Below are positions 2 to 38,607 of a DNA stretch of 38,607 bases, piece after piece. The stretch is from positions 1 to 38,607 of the IMG/VR virus record IMGVR_UViG_3300033182_000503, one strand, 5' to 3'. How positions within the stretch are numbered: position 1 is the stretch's first letter; every line of letters begins with the position of its first letter. The notes beneath the pieces are model-generated. The model made no database searches, was not told the DNA's origin, and worked only from the letters and a program-made list of their open reading frames with translations. The stretch comes from a virus. The position numbers were made by a program, and so were the translations under genes.

Positions 2-658
2 ATCGACATGGGACGGACCATGTGGGGCCTGGAGCTCAAGGACAACCCGGTACGAGCGGCTATGAAGGTTATGTCGCAGCTCTCCATGACCGGAGGAAGC
101 CGGAAGCGGGAGAGAAGGGTTCAGCCTGGGGAGATCGAGCGGATCATCGAGGCCACCCGTAAAGGTCATTGGCTTATCCCCATCGTGCGCATCGCCCTTG
201 AGAGTGGCATGCGGCAGAAGGAGATTGCTGAGCTCCACTGGGAGGACATCAATTTCGAGGATAAGAGCCTGCTGGTCCGGGACCGGAAGCACCCCACGGA
301 GAAGGAGGGGAACCACCAACTGATCCCGCTTTTACCCGCTGTGGAGGCGCTCCTACGCGCAGAATTAAAGACGAGTAAGGGGGTAGGGAGGATCTTTCCC
401 ATTGAGAGCGCCGCCAGCGTATCGGATCGTTTTGCACGGACGTGCAAAAGGCTAGGAATCGAAGGGCTTCGGTTCCACGACCTACGACATGAGGCAATCA
501 GCAGGATGTTCGAGCGGGGCATGTCCATCCCCGAGGTTGCTGCTATCTCGGGGCATAGGACATGGACCCAGCTTAAGCGTTACACGAACCTTAAGCCGCT
601 TGACTTGATCTCGGCGTTTGAACGAGGGAGTCAAGATACTCAGCAACTGCAAGAGTAG
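2..658 (+). CDS. int: Tyrosine recombinase / phage integrase, C-terminal catalytic part (5' end cut by window)
   Basis: Site-specific recombinase that would integrate and excise the phage chromosome. The reading frame is open to the left edge, so the N-terminal arm-binding domain and most of the core-binding domain are missing. Counting from the first visible Met (position 8), the catalytic set of the family is complete: Arg69 in ESGMRQKEIAEL, Lys94 in RDRKHP, His157 and Arg160 in FHDLRHEA, His183 in ISGHRTW and the nucleophile Tyr192 in KRYTNL. It is the only credible plus-strand gene in the window, opposite in direction to all structural genes, and its last 68 bases overlap the 3' end of an excisionase-like gene on the other strand. 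Family assignment is very safe; whether the element integrates, and where, cannot be read from here. No attP core could be recognised. Confidence 0.93.
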   Translation: MDMGRTMWGLELKDNPVRAAMKVMSQLSMTGGSRKRERRVQPGEIERIIEATRKGHWLIPIVRIALESGMRQKEIAELHWEDINFEDKSLLVRDRKHPTEKEGNHQLIPLLPAVEALLRAELKTSKGVGRIFPIESAASVSDRFARTCKRLGIEGLRFHDLRHEAISRMFERGMSIPEVAAISGHRTWTQLKRYTNLKPLDLISAFERGSQDTQQLQE

Positions 659-18982: not shown

Positions 18983-21900
18983 TTAGAACGATGCGTAGAT
19001 CGGCGCTAACCGATCGGTGAAGGTCTTACTAATCCCGCCAGCGGAGAACCCGTTGCGGAACGCCGTTTCGATAGTCTCCGCCGTCGGCCCGAGCAGGCTC
19101 GTGATAGCGCTGCCGCCATAGTTAGCCGATTGGCTCATCATCATCCCGAGGCCCAGGGGACCGGAGAACCCGGAGCGGTCGAAGATCTCGGCCAGATAGG
19201 TGGGCCAGTCCATGGAGTCAGAGCGGAAATACTTAGTGTCCGCATCGAGGCCCGGGAGGAGGGCGGCTCCCCCATACTTGGCGTACTCCCGAAGCTCCAT
19301 GGACAGCATGGCCAGAGGCATGGTCGCAAGGGCCGTAAGAGCCAAGATGCTGAGGCTTGAGGCCACCTGCCCGGAGCGTGATCCTGGCTCCTGGGCACGG
19401 GTGCGGGCTTCGCGGAAGAGGCCCCCCATGATTACCTTGCCGTAGGAGTAGAAGAACCCCTTGAGCTGCCAGACCAGGGCCCAGTGAGGATCAGAGGCCC
19501 AGACCGGACGCTCCGCCGCATTCGGACGCAGAACCGACGACTCCACAAAGCGCTGGAGGCCCCGCTTGACCTTGATCCCCTCAGGGGTGGTCAGGGGACG
19601 ACCCTGCTCGATCCAGGCCAGGACGTCCTTCTGGGTCAGCCCGAGCTCCGCCAGATAGCGCTCAGAGCGTGGGTTGTTGAATTCGTTGCGGGCGTGCTTC
19701 GTGATGAACTGCACCCCCATACCGGCGGCGAACTCCCGGGTGAAGCGGGTGAACCAGTCCAGGCCGATGAGCTTAAAGAAGCCGTCGGAGAGCTTACGGA
19801 CCCCTTCCTCCATGAAGTCCTGCTCGGCCTCGCTCATCCACGAGCTGGCGACCACTTCACTGGTCACCACCCCGATGTCCCGGGCGAACTGTTGCGCCTC
19901 CTGGCGATTACGGATGGTCGCGGCGATGGTCTTCATACCCGTGGCAAGGGCAGAGAAGTCCTTCGAGGCGATCACCGGACCCGCGAGCTCCGGCAGGGAG
20001 GCAATAGCGGCGAAGGGCAGGATCGTCACAAACTGGAGGAACTGCCCCCAGCTATTCACCTTCCGCCAGAAGGGGCTCAGCGGCTCGCTCTGGTAGCCGA
20101 GGTAGGCCTTAATGACGTCCTGCACCAGCGCCAGCTCCTCGGGATCAAGCTTCTTAAGCTCGACATCGAGGAGGCTGTTCCCATCCTCATCCTTCGTCGC
20201 CCGGTTCCACTCGACCCGCTTAACAAGGGAGCGAACATAGGAGACGAACGCCGCTTGGGGCTTCTTCAGGAACCCGTTGTCGGCAAGGATGCTGGGGTCA
20301 ATATTCGCTGTCAGTTGCCGCGCAGCTTCAGCCCTAGCGGCGGGGTTGGTCAGATCCACCTTGTCGGAGATCTTGATCTCTTCCTCCCCGAGCACGGCAA
20401 GGTTGTACGCCCGGATGTGCGCGATGGCCTGATCTACCGTCTGGGCCGTTAGAGTGGGGTCATTGGCCAGGAGCAGGGCTTTGAACTCCTCGGCGTTATT
20501 GGCGATCTTGTCGAGATCCAGGGCAATCGGGAAGTAGTTATCCAGACGGCCCATCGTGGTGTTCGAGGGCTCAACATAGCTGTCGTAAAGCCGCTCAAGG
20601 AACCGGCGAATATCCTGCGCCTTCGGGTTCAAGAGCTGATTGGTCGGCGTGCCCGAGGCTGCATCCTCGAAGGCCTGGATAACCTCCGGGTCCTCAATGG
20701 AGCCGATCTCGTCCTCGAACTGGTTCTGAATCTCAGCGAACTTCCGCCCGCTGGCCGTGATGAACCCGAGCGGCTTGCCCTTGGCATCGGTCTGCGAGCG
20801 CACATAGAACATGTCCGCGAGGGCCTGACTGCCGTAAATCCGCAGCAGGTTATCAGCGGGCATGATCACCTTGAGGATCGGCTTCAGCGTCTGCCGAAGC
20901 TGCTCCCGCCAGGTCTTGGCTAGGCGCTCACCACCCATCTCCTGAACGATCTCGTTGATCTGGTAGGAGAGGGACCTCGCCGTGGTCGGTGGGCCGTTGA
21001 GATCGCGCTGAGAGTTGCGCCGAGCAATGGTCGCCTCGACGTAGGACTCAAAGTCTTGCGTGACCCCGCCCCCAAAGCGCTTGCGAAGGGAAGCACTCAG
21101 GCTCCGCCAGAGCTTACGGAGCCGGTCGACGAAGTCCTTGAAGTGCTTCTCCACCATGTTCCGGGCTTGGCGACCCTTGTAGCGCTTGTTCGCCCAGAGG
21201 GATACCTGATCGGCGTACCACTCCTCGAAGCCGTCATCGAAGCCGTAGCGCTCCTTCAGCTCTTCAAAGGCCGGGGACTTCTTGTAGGCAGCAAGCAGAC
21301 GCTTACGGAGGGCAGGGTTCGCCAGAAGACGGGCCTGCTCCTCCTTGAACAGGCTGTGCCCAAGCTCATGGCCCAGGACTAGCGCGTTCTGAAGCGGGTT
21401 ACGTGATTCGCGGAAGAGGATGATCTTCTCGTCGCCCACGGTGATGTGCTGGGCGAGGACGTCCTGATTCGTGTTCAGGTTACGAACTGCTTGAGCGAGG
21501 CCCTGCTGCATCGCCGCAGTCTTAGAAAGCTGCGCGGGTTCGAGGTAGATAACCTCACCATTGCGCAGGGCGACGATCCGCCCCTCTTGGAACAGGTAGA
21601 ACTTCGGAGGGCTCTTGAGTCCAAGCGCCTTAATCATGTCCCGAATGATGTCTCGGACCATGTTGGAGAAGGCAGGACCTACATAGTCCTTCGCTCCCCG
21701 AGGGCCAGCGAGACTGTCGGGCTGGTCGTAATCAGTGCTCTGGGCGGCAGCCTCGGGGCTCTCCAGCCCCTCGCCCTGAAAGGTCTCCTGCTCGCTGATA
21801 TCGAGATCCACCGGCGTGCGCTCGAAGTACAGCGTTGAACGCTCGTTGCGGGCGAGGTTCTCCTCGTCCATGGTCTGCTCAATAAGATCGAGCTCTTCAT

Positions 21901-24730
21901 CGCTCGCAGTCTTCTGAAAGACTAGATCGTTGTAATTGACGTTACCGAAAGCGTCCATGCTATAGACGCGGAGCGTGCTTCGACCGTCAGTCGCTCGGAC
22001 ACGCCCCCTAACCTGGGGCCTCTTCTGCTCCGCCGTGGGCTGCATCATGCTGCCAAGGGTGCGGCTAGAGCCTGCCCCTAGGTCCGCAGTGAGGTCGGAC
22101 CTTTGTAGGAGCCGAGCCCCCTCCGGCGTGTTGATGGACTGCCCGTCAATCTGAACGTCGTAGCCGTTGTTAAGCAGCTCGGCGAGGAGAGCCATGAGCC
22201 CCTCTCGCCCGGAGTCCGAGAACTGCGCATTGTCCGTGGTCTCGCGAAGCCGCTGCCCCGCCCGGGTCAGATCAACTGGATTGACCTTAGTAACTTTCCC
22301 CTCAGGCGATCTAATGGTGAGCTTCGAGTCCCTCGCAAACCTACTACGGCCTGCGACACGAACGGCTTCAGCAAGGAACTGCACAAGGGGCAGGGTCTTC
22401 TTGTTCCCCCTCTCGTCGGTGAGGGTGAAGCCCTGCTCGTCGAAGTTCCGGCGCTGAAGGGTGTAGCCGTTCTCGTCAGCGATGATCTCGACGACTGAGT
22501 CAGTTCTACCTTTCTGCTCCCTTGCGGCGCGGCGGAGCATGGCTTCCGTCATGCCCGCGAATACTGGGTTGTCCCAGGACACCTCCATGGGCTTCCCGTT
22601 CACTATCACCTGCGAAGGAACCGTTGTTACGCCCTGAGGAGTGAGATCGGAGGGGGTGTTGGGGTCAGCGAAGGCCTCCTCGAAGGCGTCCCGGGCGCTC
22701 TGGGTGTTGCCAAACACTGCGTCGGGGTTTTTCTTCCGCCCGAATGAACCGATCTCCGTGACCTCAAGGCCGAGGAAACTTTGCTGGGGGCCAGAACGGG
22801 TCGGGGTGCGAGGCTCTTTCTGCTGCTGGTTAAGGGCCTCTCTAGCCTTTGCAGCCTCCTGAGCGATTAATTCCTCATCACGGGCACCCGCAAATTTCTC
22901 CGGTACCGAGTCTGCGGCGCCTCGATTTCGTCTTGCGGCTGCTTCTTGGCGGCTACGCGCTAAAGCCTCTCTTGCTCGCGCTGCTTCCCGCTCAACAAGC
23001 GCAGGGTCATAGCCCCCGCGTGGAGGCATATTATCTATGTCGAACACCACATACTCGGGATCGCCCGTGTCCTCCATGGGCCGAATGTCCGGGCCGCGCT
23101 CCTCCTGAAGGCGCCGGTTCCGATCCTCAAGGGCCTTGTCTACGGAGGTGACGTTGACCTCCTGGCCTTCGCGCTTCTGCCGGTTGGCAGCCTCCATCGC
23201 AGCGGCAAGACCAGCCTCGTTGGTCTCTTCTGCCCAAACCACGGCCCCTTTCTTATCGCGAACCTCAACCACAAGGGAGGAGTCGGCAGGCCGAAAGCCG
23301 CTATAGCCGAGGGCGACCTGAAGACCATAGTCGGACCCATTGGTCTCGAAGACGGCGTCCGCTACCTCAGGATCAAGGGACAGGATCGTCCCCTTGCCAG
23401 GGACAAAGCGCCCATAGAAGGTCTTGCCCCCTGAGGTGAAAGTCTTGGCAGAGCCGTTCTTGGGGAGGTCAAAGCGCGGCGTGGTGCCAGCAATCCACAC
23501 TGAATCCCGAGCGGAGTTGTCGTCGAGCATGGCCGAAAGCTGAGCTCGAACGTCGGCTTCGGGTTCCGGCATGGTCCCACCCTGGGACATATCACCGAAG
23601 ACCTCTTTATCTACGGCTGCGTCGACTTCCTGCTCACGACCTTTCTCAAGGAACTGGGTGGCCTTCTCCATGACATTTCGGGCAACGGAGATCGAACCGA
23701 CCCCCGCGCCAGCAACACCACCCATCGCCTTACCACCGATGGCGCCAAGGAACGCCCCTTCGGCGATCCGCATGTACCCGTCTTGAATACTATAGTTATC
23801 ATCCATGTCCATACGGTTGGCGACGGAGATGGCTTCCTGGCCACCCTCCGCAAGACCTTCCGTAACGGCCCCCACCCCCGCAAATTTCGCAATGGAGCCA
23901 AATAGCGTCGCTTCCTCATTCCCGGTGCGGGCGAGGCGGCTCTTGGCGACAGCACCCACGCCCTTCAAGAGAGCTAGGTCGATGCCGACATCGAGCGCTG
24001 CCTGGGGCGCAGCGACGAGAAGCGACCGGACCGCTAGGTCCTCATCGGGAGCTCGACCCGCATCGAGGCCCTCCCCAAAGTTCTGGCCCGCAAGAGGACC
24101 GTAGGACGCAGCGGTAGCTCCCGCTACGGCACCCCGCTTAAAGCCTTGGAACGCAAGCTCTGCGAGACTCTTTTCGTCCGGGGACGCGACCCCACGAAGG
24201 GTGCGGTCCACCGAGTCCTTGATGACCCGCTTCATTACCGCTTTCTGAGCGACACTGACCCCGGCCTTACCGAGGAGCGGCGCCATTGCCCCAACACCAC
24301 CAGTTGCCAGGGCAGAAGCAACGGTCAGTCCCATGGAAGGGACCACCATCCCCGAACCAACAATCGCCTGAGTCCACCCGGCTTCGAGGGTGGGAGACTC
24401 TACAAACTCAGCGAAGGTCGGGAGCCCCTGAAGCGCTGCGGCTGCTTTCTCTTCATAGCGCTGCGCCTGGAGGATGCGATCAGCCGTGCCCTTCTCATCG
24501 CCGAGCAGGGTGTTCGCCAGTGCGTTGAAGTAGTTTGCCGAGGACTGGAGTCCGCTGATCCCAGCAGTAAAGCCCGCATCGAACTTCTCACCCGTGGTAC
24601 GCGGGGCAGCCGGTGCCGCAAGCAATGCTTGCACATCGGGGTCGTCGGTCTGAGACCCATAAGCAGGAGGGCTAGATAGAACTAATGCTTCTAGCGCCTG
24701 ATCTTCTGGGCTTAGGGCCGGCTCAGCCAT
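18983..24730 (-). CDS. Giant internal virion/ejection protein with zincin metallopeptidase motif
   Basis: A 1915-residue protein, by position and size the major ejected core protein. Early Gly/Ala-rich hydrophobic stretches (IVGSGMVVPSMGLTVASALA near 130; FLGAIGGKAMGGVAGAGVGS near 330) and late ones (FLQFVTILPFAAIASLPELA; SSLSILALTALATMPLAMLS) could insert into membranes. Near the middle VLGHELGHSLF gives an HExxH zinc site at residues 1121-1125, and GFEEWYADQVSLWA supplies Glu1169/1170 as a possible third ligand, a gluzincin-like arrangement. The flanks are long and helical, as in polyvalent phage proteins. Stop of the previous gene is 2 bases before its ATG. Ejection role is inferred from place and size; the peptidase motif is directly visible, its activity is not proven. 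Confidence 0.8.
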   Translation of the reverse strand: MAEPALSPEDQALEALVLSSPPAYGSQTDDPDVQALLAAPAAPRTTGEKFDAGFTAGISGLQSSANYFNALANTLLGDEKGTADRILQAQRYEEKAAAALQGLPTFAEFVESPTLEAGWTQAIVGSGMVVPSMGLTVASALATGGVGAMAPLLGKAGVSVAQKAVMKRVIKDSVDRTLRGVASPDEKSLAELAFQGFKRGAVAGATAASYGPLAGQNFGEGLDAGRAPDEDLAVRSLLVAAPQAALDVGIDLALLKGVGAVAKSRLARTGNEEATLFGSIAKFAGVGAVTEGLAEGGQEAISVANRMDMDDNYSIQDGYMRIAEGAFLGAIGGKAMGGVAGAGVGSISVARNVMEKATQFLEKGREQEVDAAVDKEVFGDMSQGGTMPEPEADVRAQLSAMLDDNSARDSVWIAGTTPRFDLPKNGSAKTFTSGGKTFYGRFVPGKGTILSLDPEVADAVFETNGSDYGLQVALGYSGFRPADSSLVVEVRDKKGAVVWAEETNEAGLAAAMEAANRQKREGQEVNVTSVDKALEDRNRRLQEERGPDIRPMEDTGDPEYVVFDIDNMPPRGGYDPALVEREAARAREALARSRQEAAARRNRGAADSVPEKFAGARDEELIAQEAAKAREALNQQQKEPRTPTRSGPQQSFLGLEVTEIGSFGRKKNPDAVFGNTQSARDAFEEAFADPNTPSDLTPQGVTTVPSQVIVNGKPMEVSWDNPVFAGMTEAMLRRAAREQKGRTDSVVEIIADENGYTLQRRNFDEQGFTLTDERGNKKTLPLVQFLAEAVRVAGRSRFARDSKLTIRSPEGKVTKVNPVDLTRAGQRLRETTDNAQFSDSGREGLMALLAELLNNGYDVQIDGQSINTPEGARLLQRSDLTADLGAGSSRTLGSMMQPTAEQKRPQVRGRVRATDGRSTLRVYSMDAFGNVNYNDLVFQKTASDEELDLIEQTMDEENLARNERSTLYFERTPVDLDISEQETFQGEGLESPEAAAQSTDYDQPDSLAGPRGAKDYVGPAFSNMVRDIIRDMIKALGLKSPPKFYLFQEGRIVALRNGEVIYLEPAQLSKTAAMQQGLAQAVRNLNTNQDVLAQHITVGDEKIILFRESRNPLQNALVLGHELGHSLFKEEQARLLANPALRKRLLAAYKKSPAFEELKERYGFDDGFEEWYADQVSLWANKRYKGRQARNMVEKHFKDFVDRLRKLWRSLSASLRKRFGGGVTQDFESYVEATIARRNSQRDLNGPPTTARSLSYQINEIVQEMGGERLAKTWREQLRQTLKPILKVIMPADNLLRIYGSQALADMFYVRSQTDAKGKPLGFITASGRKFAEIQNQFEDEIGSIEDPEVIQAFEDAASGTPTNQLLNPKAQDIRRFLERLYDSYVEPSNTTMGRLDNYFPIALDLDKIANNAEEFKALLLANDPTLTAQTVDQAIAHIRAYNLAVLGEEEIKISDKVDLTNPAARAEAARQLTANIDPSILADNGFLKKPQAAFVSYVRSLVKRVEWNRATKDEDGNSLLDVELKKLDPEELALVQDVIKAYLGYQSEPLSPFWRKVNSWGQFLQFVTILPFAAIASLPELAGPVIASKDFSALATGMKTIAATIRNRQEAQQFARDIGVVTSEVVASSWMSEAEQDFMEEGVRKLSDGFFKLIGLDWFTRFTREFAAGMGVQFITKHARNEFNNPRSERYLAELGLTQKDVLAWIEQGRPLTTPEGIKVKRGLQRFVESSVLRPNAAERPVWASDPHWALVWQLKGFFYSYGKVIMGGLFREARTRAQEPGSRSGQVASSLSILALTALATMPLAMLSMELREYAKYGGAALLPGLDADTKYFRSDSMDWPTYLAEIFDRSGFSGPLGLGMMMSQSANYGGSAITSLLGPTAETIETAFRNGFSAGGISKTFTDRLAPIYASF

Positions 24731-29868: not shown

Positions 29869-30240
29869 CTACGAGTTGAGGAACGCTTCCCAGGCTGCTT
29901 CTCGTTCATCGGTTCGGACTACACGACCGACTACGCGATTTACGGCTGTCGCCTTAGGCGTTCCATCTGCCTTAAAGTCCATGGGATCGGAGAGCTCTAC
30001 GAGATCCTCAATCCCCTTCAGCACCTCACTTGCGACTTGCAGGTCACTGCTCGGCACTTCTTCTTCGGGAAGGCTGGTAGCCGCCTCAACCTTCTTGCTT
30101 TCACTTACCTGTTTGGCCCCAAGCTTCAGAGCTTCGAGCCCAATCTCGTCTGCAACTTCCCGCTCTACACCGGGCTGGAGGACAACCACCGCCCCAGAGA
30201 GGGTCGCTACACGAATCTCCGTATCCGCGATTACTTTCAC
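29869..30240 (-). CDS. Small capsid-proximal protein
   Basis: A 123-residue protein starting at a GTG (30240) with AGGAGG 4 bases upstream. It has a short N-terminal beta part (MKVIADTEIRVATLSGAVVV, LQPGVEREV) and a charged C-terminal part (VNRVVGRVVRTDEREAAWEA). Proteins of this size and place, following the capsid gene, are often head decoration or head-completion proteins, but I see no proof of that here. It is separated from the capsid gene by a strong terminator hairpin whose 3' flank nearly touches this ribosome site. Confidence 0.7.
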   Translation of the reverse strand: MKVIADTEIRVATLSGAVVVLQPGVEREVADEIGLEALKLGAKQVSESKKVEAATSLPEEEVPSSDLQVASEVLKGIEDLVELSDPMDFKADGTPKATAVNRVVGRVVRTDEREAAWEAFLNS

Positions 30241-30250
30241 GCTTCCTCCT

Positions 30251-30279
30251 TAAAGAAGCCCCCCTCCGAAGAGGGGGGC
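30251..30279 (-). terminator. Strong hairpin terminator directly after the major capsid gene
   Basis: On the minus strand a 9-bp stem GCCCCCCTC-TTCG-GAGGGGGGC with a C(UUCG)G tetraloop (30258-30279) is followed by TTCTTT. It lies 9 bases beyond the capsid stop and would end or attenuate the transcript so that most message covers capsid only. The following T run is short, so partial readthrough is likely. Confidence 0.8.
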
Positions 30280-30288
30280 ATGCTCAAC

Positions 30289-31431
30289 TTACTGAGCGGT
30301 GTCGAGGCAGATCACCCCGAAGTCTTCGACAGCGCCGTTGTAGTCGCTGTTGTACTTCGGCTTACGCAGACCGAAGATCTTGCCGATGGAGATACCAGCT
30401 TGGTTCTCGTAGTCGAAGGTGTCTTCGACGATCTCGGGAAGACCGATGTCTGCCATGGCCAGGGCTTGAGCACCGCAGAACAGGGCACGGGCCCCGGACA
30501 CATCTGCGTCTGCACCCCACTTGTAGCCAGCAGCGCCAGCGTTAACGGAGGTCCCGGTGGTTGCGCCAGCGGTGTTAAACACGTGGCGGAACTCGTGGAT
30601 CATCACCCCGTCGACCATGAGGGAGCTGCTGCCAGCGAAGAGCTGGTTGCTCGGCCCACGGACGCCAGCGTTACGGACGTTCGCCAGGAAGTCCGAATCA
30701 AGCTTGAGGGACGCCATCTGCTGGGGCGTGACGAACATGTGGAACATCTCGTCGTTACCAGCGCCGCGAATGCCACGGATGTAGTTGTCCTTGGCATAGG
30801 CCTTCAGCTCGACGATGTGCCGATACTTCAGCAAGTCGGTAGCCGTCACAGCGGTCGTGTCGCCAGCCGCGAGGTCATTGGCGCTGACGCGACGATGACG
30901 GTTTGTGGTCGGAGCGGACACGTCGGAGGCGTACTCAAGGTTCGACAGGTTCTGACCGGTTGCCAGGGAGCCACGGAGGCCGCCGTTGGTCTTGTGGGTG
31001 TACGCCACACCAGCCAGGGTGAGGAACGCGAGCTGGTCCATCCGGTCGGCCATGGCATATGCCAAGGCATCACGGCTGGTTTCGCGGAAGTTCACCACGG
31101 ACTTCTGATCGGCAAGACGGCCAGCGATGCGGTTTGCAAAGCGGAGCTGGTCAAGCTCGATGGTGATGTCGTAGGCACGAAGCGCTTCTTCGTTGCCTTC
31201 GAGGGTGTAGTCACCCGTCACACCATCGCCGTTCATGTCGGCCAGAAGCGTGATCACTGCCCGCGTACCTTTGTCGGAACGGGTCAGTTCGGTGATCCGC
31301 TGGACCATTGCGTTGGAACCAGAACCAGCGAACTGGTTCACGAAAGACATGTTGCGAGCAACACGCCAGAAGTCGCGACTCCACGCGGTAAGCTGTTCGG
31401 AAGTCAGCGACGCAAAGTTAGTAAGAGCCAT
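30289..31431 (-). CDS. Major capsid protein (N4-gp56/DUF4043 type)
   Basis: A 380-residue shell protein: MALTNFASLTSEQLTAWSRD, FVNQFAGSGSNAMVQRITEL, KGTRAVITLLADMNGDGVTG, DYTLEGNEEALRAYDITIEL and DQLRFANRIAGRLADQKSVV, then LFAGSSSLMVDGVMIHEFRH near the C-terminus. This sequence style is that of the N4-gp56/DUF4043 capsid family (HK97 fold). The start at 31431 has AGGAGG 6 bases upstream; a longer frame from 31467 lacks one. The gene has its own promoter with operator, a long structured leader and a UUCG terminator after it, all consistent with the most highly expressed late product. It follows the scaffold by about 670 bases. Confidence 0.9.
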   Translation of the reverse strand: MALTNFASLTSEQLTAWSRDFWRVARNMSFVNQFAGSGSNAMVQRITELTRSDKGTRAVITLLADMNGDGVTGDYTLEGNEEALRAYDITIELDQLRFANRIAGRLADQKSVVNFRETSRDALAYAMADRMDQLAFLTLAGVAYTHKTNGGLRGSLATGQNLSNLEYASDVSAPTTNRHRRVSANDLAAGDTTAVTATDLLKYRHIVELKAYAKDNYIRGIRGAGNDEMFHMFVTPQQMASLKLDSDFLANVRNAGVRGPSNQLFAGSSSLMVDGVMIHEFRHVFNTAGATTGTSVNAGAAGYKWGADADVSGARALFCGAQALAMADIGLPEIVEDTFDYENQAGISIGKIFGLRKPKYNSDYNGAVEDFGVICLDTAQ

Positions 31432-31650
31432 GGTAGGCCTCCTAATTTCGTCGATGTTATGCAGCAAAAACGCTGCGTTACCTTCGTTTTCAGCCGACTT
31501 GTGGAGCGGCTAACCCGTACCCCGTATCGTGGGGTAACGACTTAGCGCGTATTAACGAGGCGCGACCTCGGCACGTTTAACGCCATTGCAGGCGAGAACG
31601 TTTTTAGCGTGTGCGACACGGCCCGATATCGTTCGGGCAGACGTATGCAG
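31432..31650 (-). promoter_or_regulatory. Structured 5' leader of the capsid gene
   Basis: The ~220 bases before the capsid start contain no gene but at least five hairpins on the minus strand: gcccga/tcgggc (31621-31638), cgtgt/acacg (31608-31620), cgagg/cctcg (31556-31570), tacccc/ggggta (31518-31536) and gcagc/gctgc with an A/T loop (31461-31476). The last one ends about 30 bases before the ATG. Such a leader may stabilise the message or tune its translation; no known riboswitch fold is recognised. Confidence 0.5.
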
Positions 31651-33153: not shown

Positions 33154-35307
33154 CTATTGGGGGGTGCCCATGGGAGCCTGAGCAGGCCCCATGGATGGCC
33201 GCTTCGCAGCGGTTTGCATCGCCGTGGCAGCGATTCGGGTAGCCGCCGCAGTCTCTTGCTGCGAACGGCGGGTCTCGTTGGTCAGGTCAGCAAGCTCACG
33301 GCGCAGTTCGAGCTCCTGCTCCTTCATCTGGATCTTGGCCTGGAGCTCTGCCATGCGGAGCTGAGGCTCAACATCCGCCGTGTCCTGAACCTTGGCGATG
33401 TTCATCGCGGCTTCGGACTGGAGCTTCTGCACCTCGGCCTGGAGCTTGGCCAGTTCAAGCTGTGCCTGCTGCATGGCCATCTGCGCCTGCATGGACTGGA
33501 TCTCAGCCTGCTCCGGCGTCGGCGGCTCCTGACCCGTGAGCATGCGGATACGCTTAGCCAGCTCCTGCTTCCGGGCCAAGTGGCTGTACTCAACGATGGC
33601 ATCGTCAGGGATGGCGACCCCCACCTGACGGAGACTCAAGGCTTCAGCGAACTGCACCTCGTCGAAGCTGTCTCTGGCCGGAGCCGTGGCCACTACAACG
33701 TCATACTCACCAAGGGTGAGATCGTTAAGAATCCGCCCCTCAGGGGTCATCTGGTTAATCAGGAGAGGCTCCCGGGGCTTAAGGGGGTCGTCCTCATTGG
33801 TGATCATGATGATCCGCTCCTCGGTGTAGAAGCGCTGGACCAAGTTGAGCACCTTCTCCGCGAGGTACTGGCGGGACTTACGCAGGTTATCCAGGGGCAC
33901 CTGAATCATGATGGCGCCACGGTTCTGCTTCGCCTGGATCGCGATGCCTGATACTTCTGCACTGTCCGACCCGAGCATCGAGTCGTTGATCCCACTGATG
34001 GCCTTAATGTTCAGCGCAGCCTTCTGGCTGATACGGTCCAGGCCCGTCGGAATCTGGTTCGGCTGGATCTTGGCCGGGGGGTTCGAGCCCCGGTTGTACT
34101 CAAGCACGAGGCCTGTTTCGGCTCCATGCTCCTCCAGATCGTCCGCCGTCATACCCACGAGCGATCCGCTCTCCACCACCCAGCCACTATTAGCGGTGGT
34201 ATTAACGATATGCAGCTCTTGGCTGGCGATCTTGTTCAACTGCTCCTGGGGAGAGAGGAGGTTACGCACCATCCCAAAGGGCCGACCGCGCCGGAAATAG
34301 GCGAAGTAGGGCACCAGGGTGAAGTCGTCATAGGGGGACCAGTCGTCATGAAGCACGACCTTGTCGCAGGTGACGGTCCAGCGCACCCGACGCTTCAGCT
34401 TCGAGATGATGTTTAGGCTGTGCTGCTTGGCGAACTTTTTGGTCTTAGTCTCAGACCAGTTCTCGGGCACGTCGCGCTGGTCCCCGGTGAAAGGATCAAC
34501 GAAGCACTCGACGCGGTGCATGCGCCGGTGCTGTCGTTCCACGACCCGCAGCGCACGCACATTCCGGTATTCGTCATCGCCAGGAATACCCGCCCCAAGA
34601 TAGTCAGATGCCGCATCAAGGTCGCCATAGCGATTCTCTTCGTACTCGATTGAGTCGCGCCCGAAGCTGTTGCCGTTCTCTGCGATAAAGCGCAGTTCTT
34701 CGGCTTTTTTCTTCCCGTACAGCTCTTCGATTTCGTCGAGAGTCATCCATTTGGTTTCAAACACCTCGTTCCACGTTTTGGGGTCGTAGTCCTTGGCATC
34801 TGGATCAATGAGGATGTCTAGGGGGTCCTTAGCCATGATGCGGACCTCCCCCTCGACGTGATCGCTGAAGTCCATGCGAACGTCAAAGTATCCCCGCCCG
34901 TCCATGATCAGGCCGTCGCTGAATACCTGCTGCTCGACCCAGTCGAGCTTGTTGTTGTCCGCGATCTGCATGTACAGCTTGGTCAGCACCTGGGCGACCT
35001 CGCTGTCCCCACCCCGGCGCGGCTTGAACTGAATGTCCGCCCGCCGCGTGGACTGCTCACCCAGCACCGTGTTTACCGTCGGCAGGATGGTGTTGATGGT
35101 CAGGGCAGGGCGCCCAACCGCTTCGAGGGCGGCAATGTCAGCCTCGTCCCACTGCTCCCCCCGGTAGTACGCATCGCAGCGCTTGGCCAGCTCGATGTAC
35201 TCAAGGTGCCCGTGGTCCCGGGCCCTGACATAACGGTCCCACTGCTTGCTCGCAATCTCTTGCTGCTCGCCAGGGGTTAGCCGCTTCGCGCTCTTCAAGG
35301 TAGCCAT
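33154..35307 (-). CDS. Portal protein (P22-like)
   Basis: A 717-residue portal that forms the ring through which DNA is packaged and released. Typical stretches are CDAYYRGEQWDEADIAALEA, GRPALTINTILPTVNTVLGE, IADNNKLDWVEQQVFSDGLI, YDDFTLVPYFAYFRRGRPFG, LLSPQEQLNKIASQELHIVN and GINDSMLGSDSAEVSGIAIQ, which together are characteristic of P22-type portals. The C-terminal 150 residues are a long Gln/Ala-rich helix (barrel), as in P22. The ATG at 35307 lies one base after the terminase stop (TGATATG); a GTG 9 bases earlier is possible. It follows the large terminase and precedes the scaffold, the standard head order. Confidence 0.92.
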   Translation of the reverse strand: MATLKSAKRLTPGEQQEIASKQWDRYVRARDHGHLEYIELAKRCDAYYRGEQWDEADIAALEAVGRPALTINTILPTVNTVLGEQSTRRADIQFKPRRGGDSEVAQVLTKLYMQIADNNKLDWVEQQVFSDGLIMDGRGYFDVRMDFSDHVEGEVRIMAKDPLDILIDPDAKDYDPKTWNEVFETKWMTLDEIEELYGKKKAEELRFIAENGNSFGRDSIEYEENRYGDLDAASDYLGAGIPGDDEYRNVRALRVVERQHRRMHRVECFVDPFTGDQRDVPENWSETKTKKFAKQHSLNIISKLKRRVRWTVTCDKVVLHDDWSPYDDFTLVPYFAYFRRGRPFGMVRNLLSPQEQLNKIASQELHIVNTTANSGWVVESGSLVGMTADDLEEHGAETGLVLEYNRGSNPPAKIQPNQIPTGLDRISQKAALNIKAISGINDSMLGSDSAEVSGIAIQAKQNRGAIMIQVPLDNLRKSRQYLAEKVLNLVQRFYTEERIIMITNEDDPLKPREPLLINQMTPEGRILNDLTLGEYDVVVATAPARDSFDEVQFAEALSLRQVGVAIPDDAIVEYSHLARKQELAKRIRMLTGQEPPTPEQAEIQSMQAQMAMQQAQLELAKLQAEVQKLQSEAAMNIAKVQDTADVEPQLRMAELQAKIQMKEQELELRRELADLTNETRRSQQETAAATRIAATAMQTAAKRPSMGPAQAPMGTPQ

Positions 35308-35308
35308 A

Positions 35309-36958
35309 TCACGCACTCATCGCAGATTTATGCCGCTCCCCACGAGCCAGGAACTGCAACCTGTCTCGCCAGGACGCCTCTTTAACCACAGGAGCTTGGA
35401 AGCTAGAGAATTCGGTCATCATCAGACCTAGCCATGCCAATGCGTCCACTTGGTCGTCATGCACCCCGTTGGGGAACCGTAAGAGCTCCGCAACCAAAGG
35501 CCCCGTGAACACCGCATCACGAGGCAGGAATACCATTCCTTGCTGCATCCGACCTTGGATCGCTCGGGCCCTGGCCTCCTTATCCCGGCGACCAGTCTTC
35601 AGATCCTTGAAATACGCCTCAAAGAGCCCCCGCTCTCGAACCCGCTTCTCAAGGAACGGCCCCAGGGCCATCTCGATGTGGCCCCGTTCAATACCGATGA
35701 TGGAAGGGCGCCACTGCTCATAGAGGTCCAAGATCCGCTCCACGAGCTCGAAGCCGTCATAGCGACCTCGCACCACATCCATCACAAACAACTCATCAAA
35801 CTCATTGACCCCAACCACCATCCCCACGGAATAGTCATTGCGGTCCTTCTTCCCGATGGCCAAGTCCCAAGCGCAGTAGTAGCGCATCGCCTCTTGGTCA
35901 ATGTCGTCCGGGTCGTAGTACCGGATCATCTGTCGGGTGAAGTAGTCTCCATCGTCGGCGACGGGGGTTTGCTGATAAAGCGCGGCCCAGTCTCGCGGTC
36001 CAACAGCTTTCTGGATGCGGAGCAGGGCGTCTCGGTCGTATCGCTCGGCGTGGAGAGGCTCTCCGGTCTTACGAAACTCCTCATCCTCCTCAGCCAGCGC
36101 CGGATAGCGGACCACCTCCCACTGATCACCGCCGTCAGCCGCAGCACGCAGTAATCGACCAGCGAGATCATCGTCATGCCAGCGAGTAAGGATGACCAGA
36201 ATGCCCCCTCCCGGAGCGAGTCGGGTGTACGCAGTCGACGTGTACCAATCGTAGTTCGCGTCGCGGTTGTTCTGACTCTCTGCGTCATCTCTGTTCTTCA
36301 CCGGGTCGTCGATTACGAGAACATGAGCACCCTTACCAGTAATACCGCCGCCAACCCCAGCAGCAACATATCCACCACCAGAGGTGGTAAGCCATGCCTC
36401 AGCAGACTGGCTGTCCGGGTCCAGCCGCGTTTTGAACATTGACTTATAAGTAGGTTCTCGAAGGAGCTGGCGGACCTTTCGGCTGAATCCCATAGCCAAA
36501 GAACCGGAGTAAGAACTCGATATAAACTCGTGCTCCGGGTTTCGACCAAGGTGCCAAGCCGGAAACGCAACCGACGCGAGAGTGGATTTTCCGTGGCGAG
36601 GCGGCATAAAAAGCATAAGACGGGGCGAACGCCGCGCCACAACATCCTGAGAAAATTTCTCAAGGCGGCGGCAGATATCCTTATGCACCCAACCAGCAAG
36701 GTAGTCAGGGTTAAAGCGCTCCACGAAGGGAAGTAGCCGCTTACGTGCAAGGATTCGTAGGGCAAGCTCTTTTCGTGCTCGTTGCTCAACGGTCTGCCCA
36801 TCCTCGGAGCTCTGCTCCGTCCCCGGTGCCTCCTCGACCTGAGGCTCCTCCGCCGCATCGGCCTTGCAGTAGACGCATAAGGCACCCACCTCTGCTGAGA
36901 ACAGTGTCTCCGGTCGTAGCTCCTTGCACCGGATGCACCGCTTCTGAGGCACCTCCAC
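35309..36958 (-). CDS. terL: Terminase large subunit with N-terminal zinc-finger-like extension
   Basis: A 549-residue packaging motor and nuclease. The ATPase has Walker A PPRHGKS (119-125), Walker B VLVIDD (213-218) and the coupling motif LTRWHDDD (257-264). The RNase H-like nuclease has YCAWDLAIGKKD (Asp365), GIERGH (Glu424) and HDDQVDALAW (500-509). Unusually, residues 8-31 carry C-x2-C-x16-C-x2-C (KRCIRCKELRPETLF and ALCVYCK) followed by an acidic linker to about 58, an extension not usual for terminases. The start is a GTG sharing one base with the upstream stop (TAGTG). The enzyme is complete and lies between TerS and portal. Confidence 0.95.
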   Translation of the reverse strand: MEVPQKRCIRCKELRPETLFSAEVGALCVYCKADAAEEPQVEEAPGTEQSSEDGQTVEQRARKELALRILARKRLLPFVERFNPDYLAGWVHKDICRRLEKFSQDVVARRSPRLMLFMPPRHGKSTLASVAFPAWHLGRNPEHEFISSSYSGSLAMGFSRKVRQLLREPTYKSMFKTRLDPDSQSAEAWLTTSGGGYVAAGVGGGITGKGAHVLVIDDPVKNRDDAESQNNRDANYDWYTSTAYTRLAPGGGILVILTRWHDDDLAGRLLRAAADGGDQWEVVRYPALAEEDEEFRKTGEPLHAERYDRDALLRIQKAVGPRDWAALYQQTPVADDGDYFTRQMIRYYDPDDIDQEAMRYYCAWDLAIGKKDRNDYSVGMVVGVNEFDELFVMDVVRGRYDGFELVERILDLYEQWRPSIIGIERGHIEMALGPFLEKRVRERGLFEAYFKDLKTGRRDKEARARAIQGRMQQGMVFLPRDAVFTGPLVAELLRFPNGVHDDQVDALAWLGLMMTEFSSFQAPVVKEASWRDRLQFLARGERHKSAMSA

Positions 36959-37431
36959 TAGGACGCCTCAGGCTCTAAGTAGTCCGATTTCTGCCCCACC
37001 AGCTTCAACAGCTCCTCGTCCGACAGCCGCTCTAGCTGCTTAGAACTGGTGTTGATGTTCACGTTGATTTGCGTCGCCTGATCCGGCGTCGCCAACCCGT
37101 GGAGCTTCACCAGGGAATCCACGGTGTTCTTCATCTCCGTCGCGTTCGCCGCAACGTTGTACGCTTCTAGGTACATCTGATGCGCCGTCGTACGGTCAAA
37201 GAACACCTCCTCCCGGAGCTGCTCCCGAAAATACTGAAGCGCCTTCTGCACCGACGGGTGCTTCGACGCCTCCAAGGCCGTGTTGTAGGTCGCGTAGCCC
37301 GCAGCACGCCCCGCAGCAGCGATGGACATGCCCCGCGCCATCATGAGCACCAGCTTCTCCTGCTGGACCGTCAGAGCATTGAGCGTTAGCCCCATGTATG
37401 GCATGTGGGACTGGAACTCGACCCTCGACAT
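36958..37431 (-). CDS. terS: Terminase small subunit
   Basis: A 157-residue DNA-recognition subunit. LTVQQEKLVLMMARGMSIAA followed by AGRAAGYATYNTALEASKHP is the helix-turn-helix type segment of phage small terminases, then an oligomerisation helix (YFREQLREEVFFDRTTAHQM) and a C-terminal LVKLHGLATPDQ stretch preceding the tail that contacts TerL. The start at 37431 is chosen because it lies 4 bases after the upstream stop (TGAGGACATG), so initiation would be coupled; longer frames to 37494 or 37578 overlap the 90-aa gene and lack a ribosome site. It is followed directly by TerL. Confidence 0.83.
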   Translation of the reverse strand: MSRVEFQSHMPYMGLTLNALTVQQEKLVLMMARGMSIAAAGRAAGYATYNTALEASKHPSVQKALQYFREQLREEVFFDRTTAHQMYLEAYNVAANATEMKNTVDSLVKLHGLATPDQATQINVNINTSSKQLERLSDEELLKLVGQKSDYLEPEAS

Positions 37432-37435
37432 GTCC

Positions 37436-37708
37436 TCAGTGGAGAGATCTGTGATCTCGTTTAGCTCGCTCAACTTCCTCTGCAACCTCGGCATCAAGAA
37501 AGACAAAGACTGGGGCGTGTTCCCCCAGCTCATGCGCTCCAATGATCTCCAAGAACTCTTCGAGGTACTCGACCTCAAAACCCATCTGATGGACTAAGGC
37601 CAGGGCTAGGGCCCCGTCATAGGCCAGGACCTCGTTCCCATCCCGGTACCCTGTACCAATGACGGCGCTATCCAGCCCTTCGATGGCAACCACCTGCACT
37701 TTCACCAT
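37436..37708 (-). CDS. Small acidic protein upstream of the terminase genes
   Basis: A 90-residue protein beginning MVKVQVVAIEGLDSAVIGTG, then LALVHQMGFEVEYLEEFLEI and HAPVFVFLDAEVAEEVERAK. I do not recognise the family. The alternating strand-helix pattern suggests a small globular domain. Its start is only 9 bases downstream of a -10 (37718-37723), so the message may be leaderless, and no clear ribosome site is seen. Coupling of its stop to the TerS start argues it is real. A role linked to packaging is inferred from position alone. Confidence 0.6.
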   Translation of the reverse strand: MVKVQVVAIEGLDSAVIGTGYRDGNEVLAYDGALALALVHQMGFEVEYLEEFLEIIGAHELGEHAPVFVFLDAEVAEEVERAKRDHRSLH

Positions 37709-37717
37709 TGGCTTCAG

Positions 37718-37746
37718 ATATTAGTCGGACTAATAGTTAATCACAA
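37718..37746 (-). promoter_or_regulatory. Promoter with operator palindrome (site 1) for packaging genes
   Basis: On the minus strand TTGTGA (37741-37746) and TAATAT (37718-37723) are 17 bp apart. TATTAG-TCCGA-CTAATA (37719-37735) fills the spacer and -10. The -35 overlaps the end of the HNH gene. The transcript would begin at about the first codon of the 90-aa gene. Confidence 0.65.
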
Positions 37747-38207
37747 GAGTAATCGTGAATTGTCTTCACCCACCAGTAGAGCATGTCCGTGCTCAGGGTG
37801 TGCTTCAAAAGGTTCACCCGGTAGGCGACAAGCTGCACATTCCCCCTCAGATACCCCCGGTTCGAGTCAATCCGATCCAGGGACGCATTGAACTCCTTCT
37901 TCCCGGTGCCATCCGCATGATGCGTGAGGATGACGCCTGATACGGCGCACCTGCCTTGCTGAGCCTCCCAAAGCTCAATCACGTCCTCCGGCGTGATCTC
38001 GAAGGCGTGAGTGTCCTTGCGGGCGCTCCTGGCCTTCGTCAACAGCCTACGCAGATACATCTCGTAGGAGCCTGATACGGATTTGTTTCGCATGGTGCCG
38101 ACACATTCGCGGCACTGGGCGCGAGTCCAACCGTCCTTAGTTGTCTCGAAACGTCCTATTGGAAGCTCGCGCCCGCACGCCTCGCAGGTGCGGTCGGTTT
38201 CTTCCAT
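37737..38207 (-). CDS. HNH endonuclease with N-terminal Cys4 finger
   Basis: A 156-residue nuclease. The N-terminus has C8-x2-C11 and C32-x2-C35 (RTCEACGRELPIGRF and AQCRECVG). The HNH core has GRCAVSGVILTHH (87-96), ASLDRIDSNRGYLRGNVQLV (108-126) and a final Asn in YRVNLLKH, the typical phage HNH layout. I chose ATG 38207 because the protein begins there with the finger; a 20-residue longer version is open upstream. HNH proteins encoded next to terminases are known to work with the terminase in DNA end formation for several phage groups. Here it lies immediately upstream of the terminase promoter, so this role is likely; a free-standing homing nuclease is the alternative. Confidence 0.85.
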   Translation of the reverse strand: MEETDRTCEACGRELPIGRFETTKDGWTRAQCRECVGTMRNKSVSGSYEMYLRRLLTKARSARKDTHAFEITPEDVIELWEAQQGRCAVSGVILTHHADGTGKKEFNASLDRIDSNRGYLRGNVQLVAYRVNLLKHTLSTDMLYWWVKTIHDYSCD

Positions 38208-38478
38208 AGCCCCCAGCTCGACATAGAGCAGATGGGCCGACCATAGCAGAGGAATAGGGCAGGGCAATTTTTCTGGAGAAATTTTTTGGAAAATTTTTTC
38301 TGAAATCTCTTTCTATTTCACTCTCACACTATCTCCCCACTTGCCACCAGCCAACCCCCTTCCCCCGAATCATGTACCCGGAACCTTGTTTCATGAATCG
38401 GCCTTGGAACCTTGTCCCGCAGTAACCCCCTCGCTCCTTCGTCGTCCAGTTTGACTGGGATTCGGAGACAACGACCCG
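38208..38478. other. Non-coding region upstream of the HNH gene
   Basis: About 270 bases without a convincing gene. The left part holds an AT-rich stretch of A/T tracts; the right part is C/T-rich on the plus strand with no recognisable element. A promoter for the HNH gene must be here or beyond, but I could not place one with confidence. Confidence 0.6.
38266..38299. other. Spaced A/T tracts (possible bent DNA)
   Basis: Three tracts (AATTTTT, AAATTTTTT and AAAATTTTTT) start about 12-13 bp apart between the HNH start and the terminal repeats. Near-helical spacing of such tracts often bends DNA. It could be part of a packaging (cos/pac) region or act upstream of a promoter. Confidence 0.45.
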
Positions 38479-38607
38479 ACTAGTCAGGCGGCTTCGCCGC
38501 CTGAGGAACACACTAGTCAGGCGGCTTCGCCGCCTGAGGAACACACTAGTCAGGCGGCTTCGCCGCCTGAGGAACACACTAGTCAGGCGGCTTCGCCGCC
38601 TGAGGAA
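38479..38607. repeat. 33-bp tandem repeat with internal hairpin, at least four copies
   Basis: Units at 38479-38511, 38512-38544, 38545-38577 and 38578-38607 (30 of 33 bases, cut by the window edge) are identical. Each has ACTAGT, a perfect stem CAGGCGG-CTTCG-CCGCCTG and the tail AGGAACAC. There are no spacers between units and no following T run. The array continues to the edge, so its true length is unknown. Confidence 0.93.

Follow-up and report, generated by a model that had tools for sequence, protein, structure and literature searches.

The window analyzed here, the whole 38,607-nucleotide stretch of viral DNA, ends in a tandem array of 33-bp hairpin units upstream of the late genes. 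Relatives of this phage carry, at the corresponding place and before several early genes, a hairpin element whose two stem arms change together, and this covarying element of the phage family is a stronger finding than the array itself. The array is tentatively regarded as a multiplied form of that element, which would serve as an early promoter; we hold this reading with slightly less than even confidence.

The array occupies positions 38479-38607, for which TRF reported a period of 33, 3.9 copies, 100% matches, and a score of 258. By direct comparison, its 129 bases comprise three full units (38479-38511, 38512-38544, and 38545-38577) and 30 of the 33 bases of a fourth (38578-38607, where the contig ends), all identical and assigned to neither strand. 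The hairpins of these units are located at 38484-38504, 38517-38537, 38550-38570, and 38583-38603, the last being complete as well, and each is followed by GGAACACACTA. The original prediction of at least four perfect tandem copies holds for the identity of the units and for the four complete hairpins, but the fourth unit is short by 3 bases; the true copy number is at least 3.9. The perfect identity of the units implies recent expansion. Instead of the 7-bp GC stem that had been described, the stem consists of 9 bp (TCAGGCGGC/GCCGCCTGA) closed by a 3-base loop, which reads TTC on the plus strand and GAA on the minus strand. As single-stranded DNA the unit folds at -11.1/-11.3 kcal/mol (z -4.5/-4.8), and none of 200 shuffled sequences was equally stable. 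The 13-mers of the unit were found nowhere else in the window when both strands were compared, and no tRNA or Rfam RNA was detected.

Among the viral contigs searched, the 33-mer was present in one other contig, IMGVR_UViG_3300033183_000081 (L002, 6535 bp), which comes from another sample; this search may omit near relatives of the window's own record. L002 differs from the flank of the window by 4 mismatches in 6420 ungapped positions and contains 115 bases of the same array, reaching its contig end. The presence of the same array and flank in a different sample rules out a one-off misjoin or assembly artefact. The two contigs break at different phases (129 and 115 bases into the array), a difference that speaks against a single fixed DNA end. 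Both break inside the array, which is probably the reason why the sequence stops here, as had been proposed. The far side of the array was not found, since patterns of the unit, the hairpin core, and the flank matched only L002 across the viral contigs. The full 33-bp unit occurred in no genome contig, and a DNA search among cultured phages gave no match to the array stretch. The 21-mer hairpin of the unit is present in 2 bacterial genomes of Bacteroidota, so that hairpins with a GAA loop are not confined to the phage family; this was not taken as a sign of the host.

The predicted position of the array, upstream of the HNH and terminase genes, is borne out by gene annotation. To its left, the minus strand encodes in order an HNH/endonuclease VII-like protein, the first late gene (37737-38267; phrog_3322, 1.5e-23; phrog_1035, 6.8e-20), the terminase small subunit (36958-37578; phrog_51, 8.5e-05), the terminase large subunit (35309-36958; phrog_38, 9.4e-118), the portal protein (33154-35316; phrog_156, 1.1e-127), a head protein, and other virion genes. 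The phage is podovirus-like, and the window represents the late side of its genome together with the end of an integrase gene at the far left. This C-terminal part of the integrase (2-658, plus strand; phrog_1, 1.6e-33) is cut by the left end of the contig and suggests that the phage may be temperate. Positions 1115-1143 are a run of 29 T. On the plus strand at 30037-31545, opposite the gene for the major head protein, there is an open frame of 502 aa. The relative G003 has a comparable antisense frame that is 48% identical to it over 426 aa, a likeness probably due to conservation of the head gene.

The nearest array hairpin is located about 290 bp upstream of the HNH gene. Direct reading of the minus strand reveals an apparent remnant of the family's single hairpin at 38426-38447, with a C-GA-C(GAA)G-GA-G core adjoining GGGGG. 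Its outer pairs have decayed in the window, whereas the relative L004 keeps the hairpin with further paired steps. Alignment of relatives places on the same strand a conserved GGGGGTTACTG block adjoining the hairpin site (38420-38430) and two conserved copies of the ACAAGGTTCC repeat (38406-38415 and 38380-38389). No sigma70-like promoter was found by scanning 37700-38607. An intrinsic terminator, with a GC stem and a T run, was considered and rejected, the same region containing 0 terminator-like sites.

Relatives were collected with two anchors: the large terminase, which yielded at least 599 loci, 80 of them retained, and the HNH/endonuclease VII-like protein (72 loci). Beyond the HNH gene, they carry genes on the opposite strand, which in one 56-kb record include DNA polymerase A, a primase-helicase, and other replication genes; these opposite-strand genes indicate that the array sits in a divergent gap between late and early genes. 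Within 1500 bases upstream of HNH (some loci end sooner), the 33-bp array was found in only one of the 72 HNH loci, L082, which is the same contig as L002. Most clades carry a small GAA-loop hairpin on the late-coding strand, with its loop approximately 190-295 bp upstream of HNH, and this hairpin adjoins the conserved GGGGGTTACTG and ACAAGGTTCC block and immediately precedes the first early gene. The stems vary (ATCGC, GACAC, GACGC, CGCGC, and others), and many of the hairpins contain a tandem G.A step on both sides and then an outer CGC/GCG stem. In a few loci, such as L129, L140, L141, and L146, the GAA hairpin was not seen at the gap.

Similar hairpins also stand before early genes at distances of up to about 7 kb, and several genomes contain two to four elements before different early genes. 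Six larger relative records hold 11 G.A hairpins, compared with 1.0 expected from shuffles, and in L106 the whole hairpin element has undergone a 112-bp tandem duplication. Clusters of 9-21 bp repeats bearing TGTGTG/CACACA can also be observed in the early region of relatives such as G001 and G007, approximately 0.8-1.8 kb upstream of HNH. These clusters may be iterons, and the records G007 and G008 terminate within or at these clusters.

Scans of 2.9 million viral contigs were performed with patterns that make no demand on pairing. In the free-arm pattern, CGCTC-N5-TTC-N5-TCGCGGTCAG, the outer stem, the G.A steps, the loop, and GTCAG are fixed and both inner arms are free. It gave 77 matches in 51 stretches (35 distinct contexts, as many of the matched contigs are closely related), and the N5 arms are perfectly complementary in 75 of them. 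Eight different paired arm sequences are represented, and the two unpaired matches, L199 and L208, resemble chance matches. A pattern consisting of the right half and the downstream block gave 34 matches (14 distinct contexts, for the same reason), and in every one of them the left half is complementary and includes both the mismatch step and the outer stem. Such complementarity of arms that were left free to differ indicates that the hairpins of the relatives are selected as structures. Over 22 sites, which had been preselected as paired, both sides changed in 7 of 8 pairs, with a covariation of 0.72 compared with 0.18 after shuffling. The units of the window array all share a single stem sequence, so the array by itself cannot display covariation. 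As counted from the free-arm scan, the hairpin with the GTCAGT..TTnTGTAT element occurs in 46 viral contigs.

The loop and the strand are also conserved. Among 122 distinct G.A-flanked triloop hairpins in the relatives' loci, the loop is GAA in 48 and GGA in 4, with no other loop occurring more than 5 times. All 37 fully paired GAA contexts with exact G.A steps lie on the late-coding strand, which is the template of the early genes, and GT(C/T/A)RG follows within 12 bases on the early strand in 35 of them, the exceptions being L135 and L136. The downstream consensus of the element is GTCAGT, then TTnTGTATC. A ribosome-site-like motif and a start codon are located 37-61 nt downstream in 29 of 33 distinct sites; in the remaining four, a simple rule gives start-codon distances of 15, 15, 83, and 84.

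Sheared G.A steps and GNA triloops stabilize DNA hairpins. In L004 and G007, G.A steps alternate with single pairs, and early mRNA would have U.C mismatches in place of these steps. DNA folding energies do not separate the two strands, and the G.A-rich L004 form folds poorly on either strand with the DNA parameters used; thus, the strand argument draws on sequence logic and on the general chemistry of such hairpins. Wobble counts are too few to separate DNA from RNA. We infer from these sequence features that the template DNA strand is a likelier functional form than RNA.

The array shares the GAA loop, the strand, and the place with the elements of the relatives. Its stems contain no G.A steps, and the visible units are followed by neither GTCAGT..TTnTGTAT nor a GTCRG block, the absence of which is the main point against equating the array with the relatives' element. 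Uninterrupted 10-bp stems followed by GTCRG, and by a ribosome site as well, are found in L154 and L051 (GAA loop) and in L043 (GGA loop). Among 22 distinct uninterrupted stems of at least 9 bp, GTCRG follows 3 of 5 with a GAA or GGA loop and 0 of 17 with other loops. Thus, G.A steps do not appear obligatory. When a covariance model of the family was run unfiltered over the whole window, the four array hairpins were top-ranked on the expected strand, with weak scores for the inner hairpin alone (9.6 bits, E 0.71). The early gene presumed to be served by the array is located past the contig end, outside the window.

In phage N4, template-strand hairpins with a 3-base loop are extruded by supercoiling and read by the virion RNA polymerase (PMC4496689, PMC3715699), and the loop has a central purine (PMC3715699). 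The elements of the relatives resemble the N4 early promoters in being small template-strand hairpins with a 3-base G-purine-A loop, present in several copies and each placed before early genes, in which non-conserved stem bases are free provided that pairing holds. The features of the N4 type found in the relatives are the template-strand triloop hairpin, the compensatory stem changes, and the G-N-A loop. Several differences from N4 can also be observed. The stems of the relatives are longer (8 pairs plus G.A steps, or 9-10 pairs), the loop is mostly GAA rather than the GGA of N4, a conserved downstream block (GTCAGT..TTnTGTAT) is present, the hairpin is multiplied in tandem in the window phage, and an N4-type virion polymerase was not recognized in this phage or in the relatives examined.

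On the promoter reading, which we consider the likeliest, the array would be a row of DNA hairpins that can form cruciforms, located in the control region where the late and early genes diverge. The late operon runs leftward in the window and the early genes are predicted to run rightward, just past the contig end; the hairpins would serve as N4-like early promoters or as parts of them. Negative supercoiling would extrude the hairpin, and its GAA-loop arm on the template strand might be recognized by a polymerase or a polymerase-loading factor. In the window phage, the old single hairpin may have partly decayed and a stronger 9-bp GAA hairpin may have been amplified, giving at least four copies. 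Extrusion of one hairpin or more would thereby become more probable, or more binding sites would be available. Around the elements of the relatives in two genomes, 0 sigma70-like promoters were found, compared with 3.2 and 1.0 in shuffles.

Searches with Pfam and PHROGs found no virion RNA polymerase in the window proteins and ten proteins of one relative. A search for RNA polymerase motifs in seven genomes and a search for PF00940 found none either, although the control of the PF00940 search was also silent. A 1915-aa ejection-type virion protein (18983-24730, minus strand) carries a HELGH zinc-peptidase-like motif, the HE, G, and H of which are identical in all 26 sequences aligned. This protein was considered as a candidate virion polymerase. 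It had no PDB sequence match, and neither part gave a Foldseek hit at E 0.001. Its best fold match in a second look was a phage ejectosome protein (Z 8.7, rmsd 4.4, 245 aligned), and none of the matches listed was conspicuous as a T7/N4-type polymerase. By comparison of folds, the protein looks like an ejectosome protein and not like a polymerase.

The divergent arrangement of late and early genes is shared at a distance with Kochitakasuvirus KPP25 and Aeromonas phage phiA008, in which the family model found nothing convincing (one hit, E 0.61). In KPP25 (NC_024123), 9-bp C(GGA)G hairpins are located at 24020 and 24321, near the start of the early operon; they lie on the early-coding strand, which is the opposite orientation, and were not counted as members. 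Stable small intergenic hairpins of phages also include the CUUCGG hairpins of T4-like phages and the stem-loop of phage 7-11 (PMC8948821). The T4-like CUUCGG forms an RNA tetraloop, C(UUCG)G, whereas the plus strand of the array reads CTTCGC with a triloop, on which ground a T4-type tetraloop was rejected; moreover, the conserved letters of the present element make structural sense on the opposite strand.

A packaging role, in which the 33-bp units would be small-terminase iterons or a cos/pac element, was favored by the original prediction. The array does adjoin the HNH and the small and large terminase genes, where relatives conserve about 250 bp of non-coding DNA, including the two ACAAGGTTCC repeats, and upstream contig ends within 200 bp of HNH number 8 compared with 1.6 expected among 72 contigs. 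However, this excess lies between HNH and the hairpin; at 200-310 bp upstream there are only 3 ends compared with 0.9, with no sharp pile-up at the array position, and the window and L002 stop at different phases. Relatives with the same HNH and terminase genes lack the array, and their hairpins recur before early genes as far as about 7 kb off. Since the hairpin recurs before early genes kilobases from the terminase, a function in gene expression fits better than packaging. The packaging role gains no support from the place in a divergent gap, the hairpins before distant early genes, or the relatives without an array, and is considered unlikely. The array may also be a site for a regulatory protein, as the original prediction allowed. 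Iteron arrays consist of short units repeated identically in tandem close to genes for replication or packaging. The window array resembles them in its tandem identical short units; the single copies of the relatives, with their changing stem sequence and constant fold, are unlike sequence-specific duplex binding sites. The probability is likewise low that the one-strand hairpins are loading sites for a primase or a replication initiator, as part of an origin or of an element for single-strand initiation. Every fully paired GAA hairpin is indeed on the same strand, a relative encodes a primase-helicase (DUF5906) and the DNA primase families phrog_1829 and phrog_1156, and TGTGTG-bearing short-repeat clusters lie 0.8-1.8 kb upstream of HNH in relatives. 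An origin would, however, not be expected to keep a tight spacing to the ribosome sites and start codons of several genes, and the iteron-like short repeats are separate from the hairpins.

Positions 37-61 nt before start codons are where 5' leaders lie, so that the element might instead act in RNA, as a leader hairpin of early mRNA in stability, antitermination, or translation control. In the mRNA, however, the hairpin would have U.C/C.U mismatches and a UUC loop, whereas the template strand has tandem G.A steps and a GAA loop, and the alternating G.A and single-pair variants of L004 and G007 make sense on the template strand only. The lack of terminator-like sites in 37700-38607 also speaks against a leader hairpin, which seems improbable. 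Neutral or selfish expansion, in which replication slippage multiplied a short functionless hairpin, would agree with the finding of the array in one virus only among the viral contigs searched and with its lack of the family's downstream motif. It is nevertheless very unlikely, considering that two samples contain the array, their neighboring DNA differing at only 4 positions over 6.4 kb, and that the hairpin site is conserved, with the loop and the strand of the family.

To our knowledge, detailed descriptions of DNA hairpin promoters are limited to N4 and related phages. A description of the hairpin with the GTCAGT..TTnTGTAT element was not found in the literature searched, which consisted of open-licence papers. 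It is conceivable, if rather doubtful, that a widespread podovirus-like family drives its early genes from covarying DNA hairpins, characterized by the GAA triloop, the G.A steps, and GTCAGT..TTnTGTAT, without an N4-type virion polymerase. The host polymerase or an unrecognized phage enzyme would then read the folded strand, and the tandem in the window would be a promoter strengthened by copy number. If true, a second lineage with dozens of covarying early-gene hairpins would raise the question of which enzyme reads folded DNA. The stem variants of this lineage would provide a natural series for testing a hairpin-reading enzyme, and the tandem array would represent a hairpin site strengthened by the number of its copies.
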